Shown: positions 5,305 through 37,127 of the stretch, in pieces
How the letters are laid out: each line of letters starts with the position of its first letter
Position numbering within the stretch: position 1 is the stretch's first letter
Assembly: GCA_024762995.1 (NCBI GenBank)
Contig: JANTGI010000014.1
Span: 1 to 37,127, forward strand
DNA length: 37,127 bases
Direction: 5' to 3'
Source of the DNA: Saprospiraceae bacterium
GTDB taxonomy: Bacteria > Bacteroidota > Bacteroidia > Chitinophagales > Saprospiraceae
Notes under the pieces: model-generated
Databases searched by the model: none
What the model was told of the DNA's origin: nothing
What the model saw: the letters and a program-made list of their open reading frames with translations, nothing else
Translations under genes and position numbers: made by a program

Positions 5305-5619
5305 CTAGTGACCAAAAATTCCGGGAACGAAATAAATCATCCAAGTAAAAGCTAAAACTGCCATGGCAATGGTGACTCCGCGCATCGTGTCCACCCAAAA
5401 TCTATTTTTTTGATAGTAGCGCATGGGTATCACGTCAATGGCAATCGCTAGTAAGGCGATGGTTCGTTGTCTAAATTCTACACTGATACTATTGGCGAGA
5501 TGTCCGTTTTGCTCCAAAATAGCATATATGCCATGTAACAAAAAATAAACGAGAAGCGGGAGTAATAAGCCAATGCCAATACCTAGCTGTAAGTTGTTTT
5601 TTTGATAAAATTTGGTCAT
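5305..5619 (-). CDS. Small integral membrane protein downstream of tyrS, unknown function
   Basis: The 104-residue protein has three likely membrane segments: about residues 12-33 (GIGIGLLLPLLVYFLLHGIY), 52-66 (IALLAIAIDVIPM) and 78-98 (RGVTIAMAVLAFTWMIYFVP). It has a polar NQ/E-rich loop between the first two and no catalytic motif. It begins only six bases after the tyrS stop, on the same strand, so it is probably co-transcribed. I do not recognise a named family; small three-helix proteins of this kind are common in Bacteroidota as stand-alone hypotheticals. Confidence 0.7.
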   Translation of the reverse strand: MTKFYQKNNLQLGIGIGLLLPLLVYFLLHGIYAILEQNGHLANSISVEFRQRTIALLAIAIDVIPMRYYQKNRFWVDTMRGVTIAMAVLAFTWMIYFVPGIFGH

Positions 5620-12178: not shown

Positions 12179-12210
12179 TCGGGTAGATAAAAATCAGTCG
12201 TAGCGCACCG

Positions 12211-12298
12211 CTACACCGATAAACCGTTACACCGTTACACCGTTACACCGTTACACCGTTACACCGTTACACCGTTACACCGTTCTACACCGTTACTT
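12211..12298. repeat. Octamer tandem array (TTACACCG, seven perfect units)
   Basis: Seven perfect TTACACCG units run from 12227 to 12282. They are flanked by degenerate units (CTACACCG, ATAAACCG on the left; a 10-base TTCTACACCG on the right). The array ends three bases before the obgE stop codon. The reverse complement, CGGTGTAA, is the same family as the array at 29489-29624. Confidence 0.95.
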
Positions 12299-29291: not shown

Positions 29292-29488
29292 GGAGAAGTG
29301 ATTAATTAGCTTTCGCAAAAGGGATAAATGGTAATCACCATTGATTAAGTGTCAAAGAAAGACAATTTAGAACGAAAGTTTTGATTTTGTGGTGCTTTTT
29401 TTATTGATTTTATTTGAAGTGTTGGTTTAAGCTTCGGCCTTCTTGGCGCACATAGGCTGTAGCGGTGGGCAGACAGGGACTTCGTGAC

Positions 29489-29624
29489 CGGTATGACGGT
29501 GTTACGGTACAGCGGTATAACGGTGCAACGGTGCAACGGTGCAACAGTATAACGGTGCAACGGTATGACGGTATAGCGGTATAACGGTGCAACGGTGCAA
29601 CGGTACAATGGTACAACGGTATGA
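29489..29624. repeat. Octamer tandem array (CGGTRYAA family, 17 units)
   Basis: Seventeen consecutive 8-base units are readable in register, mostly CGGTGCAA, CGGTATAA, CGGTATGA or CGGTACAA, with single-base variants (CAGTATAA, TGGTACAA). No spacers occur, so it is not a CRISPR array. The unit is the reverse complement family of TTACACCG at 12227-12282, but more diverse. Confidence 0.93.
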
Positions 29625-29705
29625 CTTATTCTTGGTTTTGTCTCAACTCGGTTATAACCCAATAACAACGGGCTTTTTTAAGTGCCGAAACCTATTTAGT
29701 TACTC

Positions 29706-29713
29706 TATTTTTG
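29706..29713 (+). promoter_or_regulatory. Possible -7 box TATTTTTG upstream of the ECF sigma operon
   Basis: This perfect TAnnTTTG match lies about 140 bases before the sigma gene start. The long leader and missing -33 TTG make it tentative. Confidence 0.3.
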
Positions 29714-29855
29714 TCTTTTAGGCAACTATTCGCGCATTTGTTGCACATATTCAAAAGAATAAGGCGATGTTGTCCTACGGTAGATGGAAGATAGTTACAC
29801 CTGATTGGAAATGTTCGGAAGTGATTCGTCTAATTAAATCATCAAACTTGACTTT

Positions 29856-30398
29856 TTGAGAGCAAAGGAAAGAGAATTAATCAAAAAATGCCTTAAAGGT
29901 CACCAGAGTGCACAACGTGCTTTGTATCTGAATTATCGCGTCAAATGGTATATGGTCTGCCTTAGATATGCCCATTGTAAGCCGGATGCAGATGATATGC
30001 TCCAAGAAGGGCTTATTTCCATTTTTCGGGATTTGAAGCAGTTTGATGTGCGCAAAGGAAGTTTTGGGGCTTGGTCCAATCGGGTCTTGGTTAATGCGAT
30101 CTTGCAGTATTTGCGCAAATGGAAGAAATTGAAATTGAACGATGATTTTCAAGAAATGTCTCAAATTCTCATAGAGGATGAAGATGTATTTAGTACGATG
30201 AGTGCAAAGGAGTTAACCCTTCTTATTCAGCAATTGCCCACCGGTTACCGTATTGTTTTTAATTTGTATGTCATTGAAGGATACAAACACAGAGAAATTG
30301 CGGAGTTATTGAATATTTCAGAAAATACTTCAAAGACACAGTTATTAAAAGCGAAGAAAATGTTACGTGTTAGATTGGAGAATATCCTGCAAAGCTAG
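29856..30398 (+). CDS. ECF-type RNA polymerase sigma factor
   Basis: The 180-residue sigma-70 family protein has region 2 at about residues 20-90 (ALYLNYRVKWYMVCLRYA, DADDMLQEGLISIFRDLKQFD, FGAWSNRVLVNAILQYLR). Region 4 lies at about 125-172 (LPTGYRIVFNLYVIEGYKHREIAELLNIS), with the HTH ENTSKTQLLKAKKMLR. It recruits RNA polymerase to its own promoter set, probably including this operon. The start is TTG 29856; no in-frame ATG precedes region 2. It sits four bases upstream of the ATG of a membrane protein that is likely to be its regulator, the typical place of an anti-sigma factor. Confidence 0.94.
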   Translation: MRAKERELIKKCLKGHQSAQRALYLNYRVKWYMVCLRYAHCKPDADDMLQEGLISIFRDLKQFDVRKGSFGAWSNRVLVNAILQYLRKWKKLKLNDDFQEMSQILIEDEDVFSTMSAKELTLLIQQLPTGYRIVFNLYVIEGYKHREIAELLNISENTSKTQLLKAKKMLRVRLENILQS

Positions 30399-30402
30399 AA
30401 AT

Positions 30403-31818
30403 ATGAAGACACCTTTAGAAGATTTTTTTAAGCGTATGTTCTCTACATCTATGGAAGAGGAAGGGTGGAATGTGCCCTCTGATGATATTTGGGAAAAAGC
30501 TTTACCACATTTTCGAGAAGAGAAGACTAACCGAAAATTTTGGATATGGTTGATTAGTCTAGGGATGTTGCTATTGCTGTGTTTGGGGGTTATGGTCAGA
30601 TTTCAAGTATTTACTCCTAAAGAAGCTCCCACCAATCAGGAAAAAGACCTGGTTATTCCGGATAAACAGTTTGCCGAAAAGCAGGATATTCTCCTTAAGC
30701 CTAGTGCGGTGAGAGAACAACCCATAGAGCAGAATATCACCCCAACCAATAGTCTCCAAAGAAAGCATTCCGAAAGGCCCAATACGGGATCATCCGTGAC
30801 TCCATCTTCAAGGAGGCCAGAGAATGTGAAGCTAAGAAGAAAGGATGTCCCGATGGTAAAGCATTTGGTATCTATAACAGACCTTTCGGTGTTAGATGAA
30901 AAAAAGGGTGTGACGATTACATCTTCTGACTCCTTTTCCAAAAGGGGCCCATCCGTACTAATCTTAGAGAATTTGCCTTCTTTAATTCATCATCCCTTAA
31001 AAACTCCGTCTTATCAAATAAGTCGTTTGCAAAATGATATTAAAATTAATAAACCGCGCAAATGGTTTGTTTCAATTCTCGCAGCACCGAGTTTTTCCCG
31101 AATGGATATACGACCTTTGGATGGTAGTCATATAAAAGGGAGTAAGCAGTTTCAATTTTCCGATAATTTTGAAATAGGTGTGAGTAAATTTTTTAGTCAA
31201 CATTGGGGGGTATATACCGGATTGGGATTAATTTCTGTTCGCAGTAAAACAGAGACCAAAAATTCAATTGGGTACAATCCAACAACAGAGCATGTGTGGT
31301 CATCGAGCTCCATGGCGAATGACTTAACTTTTCAAACATCGACTTCTCTAGGCGATTATCGGATGTCATCGGTTGTGATACGACCCAATTCTATGCCTAT
31401 TTCCAATGGCGAAACTATTGATGTCTATTTGACTAATAATCAATTGGTTAGGTATTTGAATATACCTGTTGAGTTGCAATATAAACGTTCTTTTCAATCT
31501 CCTTTTTTGATGTATTCATCAGTAGGAGTAGATATGAACTTTTTGCTTGACGATAAAACCCAAACGGCAGGCAAGATGATGCATGGGCTCGATCAGATGG
31601 CAGCAACACCCATGACTTTGCATCGCATGACCCCGTTGGCTAAAACGGTATGGAGCGCCCATTTAGGCTTAGGTGTGGAAAGAAAAATATGGACTCATTT
31701 ATCAGGATTTGTGGGAGGAAAATACAGATATGGTTTGACTCCATCTGCAAGTCATGTCGGGCAGAAGACATTTCTTCATAGTTTACAGCTAGAAATGGGT
31801 TTTCGGTATGCCTTATAG
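30403..31818 (+). CDS. Membrane protein with cytoplasmic head, single helix, periplasmic linker and outer-membrane-type barrel; candidate anti-sigma factor
   Basis: The 471-residue protein starts at ATG 30403, four bases after the sigma stop. Residues 1-45 form a short head with WNVPSDDIWEKALPHF, resembling the P-x-x-W element at the N-terminus of many Bacteroidota sigma-linked membrane proteins. About 46-67 is one strong transmembrane helix (FWIWLISLGMLLLLCLGVMV). About 70-215 is a polar Lys/Arg/Ser/Pro-rich linker. About 218-471 has beta-barrel character (WFVSILAAPSFSRMDIRPL, HWGVYTGLGLISVRSKT, ending LQLEMGFRYAL). There is no cleavable signal peptide. By position it should control the sigma factor; a link between inner and outer membrane in one chain is inference. 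Alternatively the helix is cleaved or the barrel stays periplasmic. Confidence 0.8.
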   Translation: MKTPLEDFFKRMFSTSMEEEGWNVPSDDIWEKALPHFREEKTNRKFWIWLISLGMLLLLCLGVMVRFQVFTPKEAPTNQEKDLVIPDKQFAEKQDILLKPSAVREQPIEQNITPTNSLQRKHSERPNTGSSVTPSSRRPENVKLRRKDVPMVKHLVSITDLSVLDEKKGVTITSSDSFSKRGPSVLILENLPSLIHHPLKTPSYQISRLQNDIKINKPRKWFVSILAAPSFSRMDIRPLDGSHIKGSKQFQFSDNFEIGVSKFFSQHWGVYTGLGLISVRSKTETKNSIGYNPTTEHVWSSSSMANDLTFQTSTSLGDYRMSSVVIRPNSMPISNGETIDVYLTNNQLVRYLNIPVELQYKRSFQSPFLMYSSVGVDMNFLLDDKTQTAGKMMHGLDQMAATPMTLHRMTPLAKTVWSAHLGLGVERKIWTHLSGFVGGKYRYGLTPSASHVGQKTFLHSLQLEMGFRYAL

Positions 31819-31902
31819 ATTTTTCAGGCAACTGTTTTTGGGAGATTAGCATATTAAAGGTGACAGTCATTTTGACAATTACTCATTTTAATATTATCTC
31901 AA

Positions 31903-32781
31903 ATGAAAAATCTTTTTTTAATTTTAACAGCGGTTGTTTTAACTGTTTTGTCTTCTTGCAAGAAAGATGAAGCCAGTTTTTCAGATCTGACTCTTGACTT
32001 GACGGGGTTAGAAGACTTGGGTGGAAACTTTGTTTATGAAGGATGGTTAGTGGTGGATGGCACACCCATCACTACCGGTACTTTTAGTGTGAATAGTAGT
32101 GGTGTATTGTCCAAGACAAAATTTCCAATAGACAGTGACCAGTTGCAGAAAGCTTCGGATTTTGTGTTGACAATCGAGCCGGCAAATGATTCGGATCCGG
32201 CACCTGCTTCCACACATCTTTTGTCCGGTTCCTTCTCGGGAAATACAGCAATGGTGACCACCGCTACTGTAGCAGACTTTTCAAATGTTTCCGGTAAGTA
32301 TATATTGGCGACTCCTACCAACGGCCCGATGTCCAGTGAAAATAGTGGTATTTGGTTTTTGGATTTGAGCACAGGCGCCCCCACAGAGGGGTTGAAATTG
32401 CCTACGCTATCCAGTGGTTGGAAGTATGAGGGGTGGGTCGTGATTAATGGGACTCCGGTTTCAACAGGTACGTTTACCAATACGAAGGCAACAGATGAGT
32501 TTGATGGTTATAGTGGCCCTATGGCATTAGGAATGGTCAATGGCTCCGATGGCTTTTTTCCCGGAGAAGATTTTTTGAAAGCGGCGCCTACCGGGCTTAG
32601 TTTTCCTACGAATATCGCAGGAGGGAAAGCAGTGATAAGTGTGGAGCCATTTCCGGATAATAGTGCCGCTCCTTTTACGATTAAGCCTTTGGTTGGAGAT
32701 ATTCCTGCCGATGCAGTTGATCATGTTAATTACGAAATGAGTAAAAACACTACTATGCCAATGGGTAGCGTGAGTAGATAG
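31903..32781 (+). CDS. Lipoprotein with two RskA-like anti-sigma sensor modules
   Basis: The 292-residue protein has lipoprotein signal peptide LILTAVVLTVLSSC (Cys19). Two related modules follow: YEGWLVVDGTPITTGTF at residues 45-61 with FVLTIEPANDSDPAPASTHL, and YEGWVVINGTPVSTGTF at 175-191 with AVISVEPFPDNSAAPF. These resemble the extracytoplasmic domain of RskA-type anti-sigma factors, where a W-x-x-x-x-G-x-P-x-x-x-G-x-F strand and an EP-rich strand are conserved, but there is no transmembrane helix or sigma-binding head. It is probably co-transcribed with the sigma and barrel genes (84 bases after the latter). A sensor role is inference. Confidence 0.82.
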   Translation: MKNLFLILTAVVLTVLSSCKKDEASFSDLTLDLTGLEDLGGNFVYEGWLVVDGTPITTGTFSVNSSGVLSKTKFPIDSDQLQKASDFVLTIEPANDSDPAPASTHLLSGSFSGNTAMVTTATVADFSNVSGKYILATPTNGPMSSENSGIWFLDLSTGAPTEGLKLPTLSSGWKYEGWVVINGTPVSTGTFTNTKATDEFDGYSGPMALGMVNGSDGFFPGEDFLKAAPTGLSFPTNIAGGKAVISVEPFPDNSAAPFTIKPLVGDIPADAVDHVNYEMSKNTTMPMGSVSR

Positions 32782-32810
32782 GTAGCTGACTAAACAGTGA
32801 CCTAAACTTT

Positions 32811-32857
32811 CCGGTACAACTGCCGCCAAAAGCATAAACGCTAGGCAGTTGTATCGG
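32811..32857 (+). terminator. Terminator of the ECF sigma operon
   Basis: The 14-bp stem (CCGGTACAACTGCC pairing with GGCAGTTGTATCGG, one G-U wobble) has a 19-base loop and is followed by TTTGTTTGC. It lies about 30 bases after the lipoprotein stop. Confidence 0.75.
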
Positions 32858-32970
32858 TTTGTTTGCTTCCTAGAAGTAGTGGTTTTGCCTATGGCAGTTA
32901 AGTTGCGGAGCTAGGACGTGCGACCATTCCTAAACCTTCGAGTACCCATATACCGGTGTTTTAACAAAGG

Positions 32971-33258
32971 CTAACGAATCACCACGTCCTTTACAAAGTC
33001 TTCCCCTAAGTGTTTGTTGATCAGTGCGATAAGCCGGTCTTTGGACATTACCAATTCATTTTTTAGTGGGGCGGAAGTAATCTTGAGAAAGAGCGTGTTT
33101 TTTCTTAGACTAATCTCTTGAGTGTATCTGTCAATGAGTTTTCCCATTAGTGTGGGCCAAGAATCACGGAGCTTGGCTTCATAAAGCTTGGGCTTCATTT
33201 TTTGTTGTTTGATCATCATCTCAAACAACTCTTTCAAAGGGTGATTATTGTCTTTCAT
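32971..33258 (-). CDS. DUF721 / DciA-like protein
   Basis: The 95-residue protein has the DUF721 pattern KLRDSWPTLMGKLIDRYTQEISLRKNTLFLKITSAPLKNELV. DciA-type proteins of this family help load the replicative helicase in bacteria lacking DnaC; in Bacteroidota this role is likely but not shown here. The ATG directly follows the stop codon of the preceding gene (no gap), so the two are one transcript. No further domain is attached, which matches the short Bacteroidota form. Confidence 0.85.
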   Translation of the reverse strand: MKDNNHPLKELFEMMIKQQKMKPKLYEAKLRDSWPTLMGKLIDRYTQEISLRKNTLFLKITSAPLKNELVMSKDRLIALINKHLGEDFVKDVVIR

Positions 33259-34389
33259 TTATGCTAGTTCGTAAAGCTCTTTGATGAATACACGTCTTTT
33301 TTTGTGGATTTTGGTGTCATAATTGGCCATCAATTGGTGTAGTTTATTGTTGGTTTCCAATTCGGGGTTGCTTTCGCTAAATTTGATATTATTTTTGCGA
33401 AATCCTTCAATAATGGCATTCATAATGATCGCGGGCACTCCTTTGTTTTGCCATTCGGGATGCACACCGATAAGGTATAAGTCGGCTAAGTCATTTTTCT
33501 TTAAAGCTTTTTTGATATAGAAAATGCCAAAAGGGAGAAGCCGGCCATTGGCTTTCTGTAAGGCTTTGGAGAAGGAAGGCATGGTAATCCCAAAGGCAAT
33601 AAGCCGGCCATCTTTGTCGGCCACAAATTTAGTTAGGTCGGGGTTGATAAAAGGGTAGAATCTTTTTTTGTAGAATTCAATTTGCTCGGTGGTAAAGGGG
33701 ACAAAGCCTTCAATATCCGCATAAGATGCTTCCACCAATGGAAAAAATTGGTCCAATAATTTTTGAATATCCTTTTTCTTTTTGACATTGATGTCTTGCA
33801 GGCCATACCTTTCGTAAATGGTCTTGGATAGCCGGATGATTTTTTCGGGTGTTTCTTGGGGGACGGGAGCAATAAACTCAAACCAATCGGCTAATTTTTT
33901 GTAGCCTAGCGATTCCAAGTGCTTGGGATAGTAGCTGTGATTATAAATAGTAGCCATCGTGCTTAATTGGTCAAATCCTTCATAGAGCATTCCGGCTTTG
34001 TCGAAGTTGGTGAATCCAAAAGGGCCTTTAAGCGCTGTCATGCCCCTTGCTTTTGACCAGTCTTCTAAATATTTGAAAAGCGCTTTGGAGACGTCAATTT
34101 TGTTGATAAATTCAATCCAGCCAAATCTCGCGTGTTTGACTCCGGATGCTTCATTTTCCTTATGATTGATGATGGCAGCGGCGCGCCCGACAATTTTACC
34201 GTTATAAAGAGCTAGAATAAGCTGTAACTCAGCGTGTTTTAGTACCGGATTATTTTTGGAAAGATAGCGTTTTTCATCTCTAATTAATGGAGGCACCCAA
34301 TACTGATTACCTGCATAATGCTTGAAGGGAAATCGGACGAATGCATTTAAATCAGCAGAAGAGCTGACTTCTTTTATTTGTATTTTCAT
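33259..34389 (-). CDS. Acetyltransferase-like protein (YghO-like, GNAT C-terminal half)
   Basis: The 376-residue protein starts at ATG 34389 (MKIQIKEVSSSADLNAF). It is recognisable by FPFKHYAGNQYWVPPLIRDEKRYLSKNNP, GRAAAIINHKENEA, GPFGFTNFDKAGMLYEGFD and the GNAT-like segment DLYLIGVHPEWQNKGVPAIIMNAI. Proteins of this type are annotated YghO-like or GNAT family in Bacteroidota; the reaction is unknown. The longer frame to 34473 adds a non-conserved leader. The gene ends exactly where the DciA-like gene starts. Confidence 0.82.
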   Translation of the reverse strand: MKIQIKEVSSSADLNAFVRFPFKHYAGNQYWVPPLIRDEKRYLSKNNPVLKHAELQLILALYNGKIVGRAAAIINHKENEASGVKHARFGWIEFINKIDVSKALFKYLEDWSKARGMTALKGPFGFTNFDKAGMLYEGFDQLSTMATIYNHSYYPKHLESLGYKKLADWFEFIAPVPQETPEKIIRLSKTIYERYGLQDINVKKKKDIQKLLDQFFPLVEASYADIEGFVPFTTEQIEFYKKRFYPFINPDLTKFVADKDGRLIAFGITMPSFSKALQKANGRLLPFGIFYIKKALKKNDLADLYLIGVHPEWQNKGVPAIIMNAIIEGFRKNNIKFSESNPELETNNKLHQLMANYDTKIHKKRRVFIKELYELA

Positions 34390-36950: not shown

Positions 36951-37127
36951 GGTCTTTGGTGCGCTCCCTGTGGTCGCTTTTGGTCTTTGGTGCGCAGCAA
37001 GCTGCTTTTGGTCTTTGGTGCGCAGCAAGCTGCTTTTGGTGTTGGGTGCGCAGCAAGCTGCTTTTGGTCTTTGGTGTGCAGCAAGCTGCTTTTGGTCTTT
37101 GGTGCGCAGCAAGCTGCTTTTGGTGTT
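36951..37127. repeat. 28-bp minisatellite downstream of pbpC, running off the window
   Basis: Units start at 36951 (diverged, 31 bases), 36982, 37010, 37038, 37066 and 37094, and a seventh is cut at 37122. Each regular unit is GGTCTTTGGTGCGCAGC then AAGCTGCTTTT, with a GCAGC-AA-GCTGC palindrome in the middle. Units differ by one to four bases. No unique spacers exist, so this is not CRISPR. Its end lies outside the window. Confidence 0.95.

Follow-up and report, generated by a model that had tools for sequence, protein, structure and literature searches.

A family of anti-sigma factors was reportedly named Dma by Pardue in PNAS in 2024. As described in PMC13088901, Dma proteins consist of a head, one membrane helix, a disordered tether and a barrel, and their genes lie adjacent to those of extracytoplasmic function (ECF) sigma factors. 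A Phocaeicola anti-sigma factor had been predicted in 2022 to span the periplasm and to carry an outer-membrane barrel (PMC9308784). The gene for its sigma factor, EcfO, is induced 33-fold by BcpT, a lipid A-core-binding toxin that is an inducer of EcfO-Reo (PMC9308784, PMC13114119), and ecfO-reo were the most induced genes under either BcpT or bacteroidetocin A (PMC13114119), the latter an inhibitor of BamA (PMC9308784). Knowledge of Dma and Reo comes from a small number of genetic studies, in Bacteroides and Phocaeicola. Here we analyzed a 37,127-nt stretch of contig JANTGI010000014.1 from a Saprospiraceae bacterium (the window), in which genes spanning 29856-32781 encode an ECF sigma factor, a 471-residue protein and a lipoprotein. 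We conclude, with good confidence, that they form a Dma/Reo-type ECF sigma/anti-sigma operon with a probably sigma-driven lipoprotein.

The sigma factor and the 471-residue protein

The locus has the following features.

29720-29749, + strand: predicted autoregulatory ECF promoter, AGGCAACT-N16-CACATA (−35/−10), exact match to AGGCAACY-N16-CAYATW; the −35-like element is shared upstream of homologous sigma genes
29856-30398, + strand: ECF sigma factor, 180 residues, TTG start (Pfam Sigma70_r2 and r4_2; TIGR02937)
30403-31818, + strand: Dma/Reo-type anti-sigma factor, 471 residues, predicted to be trans-envelope (model, Pfam, structure alignment)
30403-30531, + strand: its residues 1-43, cytoplasmic head (helices 4-14 and 27-36; W..PSD.IW), presumed to bind sigma (model; conserved in relatives)
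30532-30612, + strand: its residues 44-70, single inner-membrane helix, positive on the head side (model, sequence)
30613-31050, + strand: its residues 71-216, disordered periplasmic tether (low model confidence; composition)
31051-31818, + strand: its residues 217-471, predicted 8-strand outer-membrane beta barrel (model, Pfam, VIA-align)
31826-31855, + strand: second ECF promoter-like site, AGGCAACT-N16-CATATT, exact match, within the 84-base gap preceding the lipoprotein gene
31903-32781, + strand: lipoprotein, 292 residues, two RskA_C matches, probable regulon product (Pfam; lipobox; often apart from sigma genes)
32811-32857, + strand: 14-pair hairpin, likely operon terminator (folding energy against shuffles)

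The original prediction had described a sigma gene followed after four bases by a head-helix-linker-barrel protein and then by an RskA-like lipoprotein. Reading frames, Pfam and AlphaFold2 confirmed this layout, with 4 bases between the sigma stop codon and the start of the 471-residue gene. The sigma factor matched Sigma70_r2 (1.3e-13) and r4_2 (1.9e-16) in Pfam and TIGR02937 (9.5e-26) in NCBIfam, and a family-library scan matched it to general ECF families. On a sigma factor tree, it formed a group with six Saprospiraceae sequences (support 99/93).

We modeled the 471-residue protein as a single chain with AlphaFold2 from a 21-sequence alignment, which gave a mean predicted local distance difference test score (pLDDT) of 68.0. 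The two head helices were modeled with block means of about 60 to 71, and the two-helix head was conserved in the alignment of relatives. The membrane helix is the sole hydrophobic stretch of the chain. Residues 70-216, in which S, K and P, along with L, are the commonest residues, had pLDDT values below 50 except at residue 126. Eight long strands lay within residues 221-470, mostly at pLDDT 85 to 96, with block means dipping to 57 to 78. The model thus bore out both the domain borders first proposed for this protein and the presence of a barrel in the product of 30403-31818. OMP_b-brl_2 (PF13568) matched residues 247-448 with 30.7 bits (cut-off, 27). When VIA-align was used to superimpose known barrels onto residues 214-471, Z scores were 14.6 for NspA, 13.9 for OmpA (14.6 for its model entry), 13.5 for OprF and 13.0 for OmpW, at root mean square deviations of 2.6 to 3.4 Å; all four are 8-strand barrels. 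A profile search of PDB sequences returned weak barrel fragments only, and Foldseek with the whole model returned a mixture of large and small barrels with template modeling scores, normalized by query length, of 0.10 to 0.26. Because the Foldseek scores were low and mixed, the barrel comparison rests on VIA-align.

The order of sigma gene and partner gene is conserved among relatives beyond what chance would give. A single-sequence search with the 471-residue protein matched 11 of 60 genomes, the source genome included. We looked at 13 neighborhoods, that is, the stretches around matches to this protein in relatives, and found a homologous sigma gene directly upstream in 10; among the other three, two matches (L019 and L021) lay at contig ends and one (L025) had only a partial sigma frame. 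In L025 the barrel-type gene is intact and the partial sigma frame lies upstream of position 5556, through either decay or an assembly error. Since the barrel protein was too divergent for plain homology searching, we used a sigma profile for a wider survey. The named loci referred to below are the best 80 of 578 confirmed stretches from a scan of named genomes with a sigma alignment (A2). One had no intact sigma frame at the match and five had no downstream frame, leaving 74. The downstream frame encoded a partner whose hydrophobic helix begins at residue 28 to 100 for 66 of these 74 sigma genes, and the median gap between sigma and partner genes across the 74 pairs was −1 base. We scanned the 70 complete downstream genes together with that of the window protein (n = 71) and obtained matches to OMP_b-brl_2 in 30 and to OMP_b-brl in 20 (E value threshold, 0.01), sets that may share members. 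Of the 70 complete genes, at least that of L146 encodes a secreted protein and not a partner.

In the source genome, a profile of the barrel proteins picked up, besides the gene of the 471-residue protein, another sigma-partner pair on contig C123 (L180, positions 582-2423), whose 418-residue partner also has a head, a helix and a long tail. Two further sigma factors in this genome that are related to that of the window are followed by short partners, of 135 residues on contig C3 (L182) and of 175 residues on contig C110 (L183). In six named loci (L167, L143, L150, L156, L108 and L122), profile matches and alignment indicated that two to four copies of the head motif seemingly precede the membrane helix; judging from these sequences, such partners could hold more than one sigma factor. 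Titles of metagenome-assembled genomes placed two loci outside Bacteroidota, in Treponema (L113) and Sphingomonadales (L099). We did not accept this as spread beyond the phylum, misbinning being the likelier explanation.

A promoter-like element and the downstream lipoprotein

Upstream of the sigma genes of relatives we noticed, by eye, the sequence AGGCAAC(C/T), followed in several cases by CA(C/T)AT at a roughly equal spacing. The named loci had no part in this discovery. Among them, GCAACC was the most enriched hexamer 20 to 120 bases before the sigma genes (22 of 77, against 12 of 469 control regions; Fisher p = 1.6e-12), and T-rich hexamers came next in the ranking. When matches inside or within 20 bases of the gene start were counted, the numbers were 29 of 77 and 15 of 469. 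For the sigma genes of relatives, with the window left aside (n = 12), the top hexamer was GGCAAC, present in 9 of 12 regions against 17 of 469 (p = 1.8e-10). The 469 controls were the other genes of the loci, partner genes included, and hexamers were scored only if they occurred in at least six regions (named loci) or at least three (relatives). Gene starts were assigned mechanically except for L018, L029 and L044, which were set by hand; no sigma start could be used for L025, L019 and L021. The related sequences behind these statistics are not independent events, and at least about 55% of the sigma genes in the named loci lack GCAACC, so that the element is not universal.

Three exact sites for AGGCAACY-N16-CAYATW are present in the 3.68-Mb source genome: 29720, 31826 and a third on contig C36, which lies within a gene in antisense orientation. 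The shorter GGCAACY-N16-CAYATW had six sites, against none for a reversed control. Four of the six lie off the operon, three antisense inside genes and one between genes facing no co-oriented gene, which limits the promoter claim. The C36 site, which carries the leading A as well, is among these four. With the extended form AGGCAACYNNT, whose added T was picked after the sites had been seen, only 29720 and 31826 were exact, and one-mismatch sites numbered two, as in the reversed control. Across 19 relatives, AGGCAACY-N16-CAYATW had 15 sites, against two for the reversed control: four at known operons, three before envelope genes and eight within genes, antisense or with no co-oriented gene ahead. 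The sites at 29720 and 31826 are predicted to be promoters of this sigma factor. A sigma-70 promoter scan gave 10 sites, equal to the shuffle mean. Away from the sigma operons of relatives, such a site precedes lipoprotein or secreted-protein genes in L083 (521-493), L084 (1789-1817) and L087 (1823-1851), and these genes are candidate regulon members.

The lipoprotein encoded downstream has a lipobox, LSSC, with the cysteine at position 19, and Pfam RskA_C matched it in two stretches with 46.1 bits (cut-off, 29.4), in agreement with the two RskA-like modules first proposed. RskA_C used as a family query across the source genome gave no match, although the lipoprotein itself passes the Pfam cut-off, and a PDB sequence search with the lipoprotein returned nothing. 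It lacks an anti-sigma head and, its lipoprotein signal apart, any membrane helix, so that head, helix and RskA_C are not united in one chain as they are in RskA, and an NCBIfam antisigma model scored 30.3 bits, below its cut-off of 100. Nor is it a NigD protein: NF051862 (NigD1/NigD2 family) reached 11.4 bits against a cut-off of 60, over residues 3-36 only. The original prediction had proposed that the functions of RskA are split and rearranged across this operon. That proposal was not supported, since the anti-sigma chain is complete in itself (with no RskA_C match in Pfam) and the reading frames of the 80 named sigma loci yielded no relative of the lipoprotein.

We then asked where else the lipoprotein occurs. 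It was present in 12 of 100 genomes, the source genome included, and we examined 13 neighborhoods (the window, L018 and 11 others; a match in G052 at a contig end was excluded). The lipoprotein gene lies behind a sigma-partner pair in four of the 13 (the window, L018, L044 and L046), the genomes other than the source being G003, G021 and G078. No such sigma gene was found in the stretch in the remaining nine, among which L053 and L054 are weak matches and L048 and L050 short contigs. In G008 and G036, a Dma-type gene and the lipoprotein gene are on separate contigs. The gene order had been expected to recur in relatives; the sigma-partner pair is kept in 10 of 13 neighborhoods, while the three-gene order is found in only 4 of 13 lipoprotein neighborhoods. 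With L054 left out, the element before the lipoprotein gene was exact in two neighborhoods (the window and L046), had one base changed before the stand-alone copy of G008 (L045) and was reduced to a looser GACAAC in L018 and L044; no element was found in the other 7 of 12, which again limits the promoter claim. Because the gene has its own promoter-like site and often has no such sigma gene nearby, the lipoprotein is likelier to be a target of the sigma factor, a regulon product that serves a separate function, than a sensor subunit.

The operon was also said to end in a terminator. This is supported by the 14-pair hairpin at 32811-32857, with a folding energy of −28.5 kcal/mol (z = −4.79; none of 200 shuffles was equally good), but its T-tract is broken and a consensus terminator scan of 29300-33300 returned no terminator-like site, leaving this hairpin unlisted. 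Tandem arrays of 8-base units (ACGGTACA / CACCGTTA) occupy 29496-29621 and 12206-12296, and similar units precede the sigma genes of L180 and L183. The reading frame at 29345-29668 (107 residues), which overlaps the first of these arrays, is apparently an artifact of it. At the end of the window, 36976-37124 is a tandem array of 28-base units (5.3 copies, 95% matches).

Partners with a type IX secretion sorting domain

Nine of the 70 complete downstream genes of the named loci encode a C-terminal Pfam CHU_C domain, a signal for the type IX secretion system (T9SS), in place of a barrel. These partners (L099, L106, L108, L118, L122, L123, L155, L165 and L166, L155 being Crocinitomix catalasitica ATCC 23190) have the head and the hydrophobic helix. 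All nine passed the CHU_C cut-off; six (L099, L106, L123, L155, L165 and L166) also passed that of TIGR04131 in NCBIfam, and L108, L118 and L122 fell below it. Their aligned C termini share the consensus PNVFTPNGDGxND, and a PKD match above a Pfam cut-off was found in four (L099, L106, L155 and L165). The promoter element precedes the sigma gene in four of the nine loci (L099, L106, L122 and L166). An AlphaFold2 model of the L165 partner was poor (mean pLDDT, 51.8; predicted template modeling score, 0.27; block means of 40 to 87 over residues 221-373), and the assignment of the sorting domain therefore rests on Pfam, NCBIfam and the alignment.

The sorting-domain partners are clustered on the sigma factor tree. 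Mapping this label onto the tree took four changes, against a mean of 8.7 for shuffled labels, and none of 500 shuffles was as low. A single origin is neither shown nor excluded. We found no paper that describes an anti-sigma factor and a T9SS sorting domain in one chain when searching by title and the start of the abstract, a search that left subscription journals mostly uncovered and so gives weak evidence of novelty.

These partners suggest, quite tentatively, that this sigma family uses decoy substrates tethered to the inner membrane as sensors, the C-terminal cargo being matched to the export machine that is watched. A barrel, as in the window protein and other Dma proteins, would be handed to the beta-barrel assembly machinery (BAM), and the type IX secretion system would receive a T9SS type B sorting domain, accompanied in several partners by PKD; the success or failure of export of the tethered bait would then set sigma activity. 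If BAM governs the response of the barrel forms and T9SS that of the sorting-domain forms, then it is the cargo that senses. The sorting-domain partners thus turn the question of what a trans-envelope anti-sigma factor senses into a testable comparison.

Proposed mechanism, alternatives and known systems

In the mechanism that we propose for the window operon, the 43-residue head would hold the sigma factor at the inner membrane, as its published relatives suggest. One predicted helix would cross that membrane, a disordered tether of about 146 residues is predicted to cross the periplasm, and the predicted 8-strand barrel would sit in the outer membrane, presumably inserted by BAM. Failure of barrel assembly, or damage to the outer membrane, would lead to the chain being changed or cut and to release of the sigma factor, which would then transcribe its own operon from 29720 and the lipoprotein gene from 31826, both promoters being predicted from sequence conservation. 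An extended chain measures about 0.36 nm per residue. Fully extended, the 146-residue tether would reach about 50 nm, longer than the periplasm, and so it need not be under tension; this favors proteolysis of an uninserted or damaged chain, which seems the more plausible means of signaling, over a mechanical pull.

Several observations weigh against the assignment to the Dma/Reo type. The 471-residue protein is only 15 to 21% identical to its relatives, and its likeness to Dma is one of architecture and gene neighborhood and not of direct sequence comparison. Binding of the sigma factor by the head is presumed by analogy with the published Dma proteins. (A/G)GCAAC(C/T) occurred within 300 bases after only 5 of the 70 named partner genes, in none of them close behind as in the window, and the 200 bases ahead of the second sigma-partner pair of the source genome contain no (A/G)GCAACC.

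The original prediction had made the lipoprotein a second sensor. RseB with RseA provides the model for such an arrangement, in which the lipoprotein, bound either in the periplasm or on the surface to the barrel or the tether, would tune the release of the sigma factor. Its place behind the sigma-partner pair, in G003, G021 and G078 as in the window, fits this, as does its conservation, since between the window and G003 the lipoproteins are 65% identical, the sigma factors 59% and the barrel proteins 21%. The promoter-like site of its own, the 9 of 13 lipoprotein neighborhoods with no such sigma gene nearby and the lack of any relative among the reading frames of the 80 named sigma loci nevertheless argue against a second sensor, and we consider it unlikely.

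Another possibility is that the 471-residue protein is an inner-membrane anti-sigma factor whose barrel-like domain acts as a periplasmic sensor and is never inserted. The modest Pfam match (30.7 bits against a cut-off of 27) leaves some room for this, but eight modeled strands over 221-470, Z scores of 13 to 14.6 to NspA, OmpA, OprF and OmpW and a linker long enough for the periplasm make it quite improbable. That the sigma and barrel genes are merely neighbors with no functional coupling is more improbable still, hardly to be reconciled with an adjacency kept in distant genomes, a median gap of −1 base across 74 pairs and a conserved element before the sigma-partner pair. A trans-envelope anti-sigma factor, as originally proposed, fits the sequence and structure tests and matches the published Dma/Reo class; the idea is therefore sound in outline without being new.

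Dma1/Das1 and Dma2/Das2 of Bacteroides thetaiotaomicron have the same four-part chain next to an ECF sigma factor (PMC13088901). Expression of the NigD1 gene rises when Dma1 is lost (PMC13088901), and Das2 and the cognate sigma factor of Dma1 are called ECF21. The present sigma factor groups with Saprospiraceae sequences. In EcfO-Reo of Phocaeicola vulgatus and Bacteroides fragilis, as here, a sigma gene is followed by that of a large periplasm-spanning anti-sigma factor with a barrel, and similarity of the anti-sigma factor between species is low (PMC9308784, PMC13114119). The EcfO-Reo regulon holds nigD surface lipoprotein genes (PMC13114119, PMC9308784), a parallel to the lipoprotein described here; NigD lipoproteins hold the matching place in the EcfO and Das1 regulons, whereas the present one is RskA_C-like instead. 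Reported inducers of EcfO-Reo are BcpT, bacteroidetocin A and, in B. fragilis, oxygen. What is shared with RskA-type anti-sigma factors is only the RskA_C match of the downstream lipoprotein, in two stretches. An ECF motif inferred in PMC9723704 has CGT in its −10 region, unlike our element, and neither GGCAAC nor GCAACC appears in the main text of that paper. The nearest precedent for the T9SS-type partners is PorA-PorXY-SigP of Porphyromonas gingivalis (PMC7712824), where a T9SS C-terminal domain belongs to a protein that acts upstream of the ECF sigma factor. PorA is a separate surface protein that works through a two-component system, whereas the T9SS-type partners carry the sorting domain within the presumed anti-sigma chain.

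Together, the Saprospiraceae example and the element conserved ahead of many of the family's sigma genes open a route to regulon prediction from sequence. The trans-envelope architecture is an already published class, shown genetically (PMC9308784, PMC13114119, PMC13088901), of which the present operon is a further example; what goes beyond those accounts, as far as they were available, is the conserved promoter element and the T9SS-type partners.

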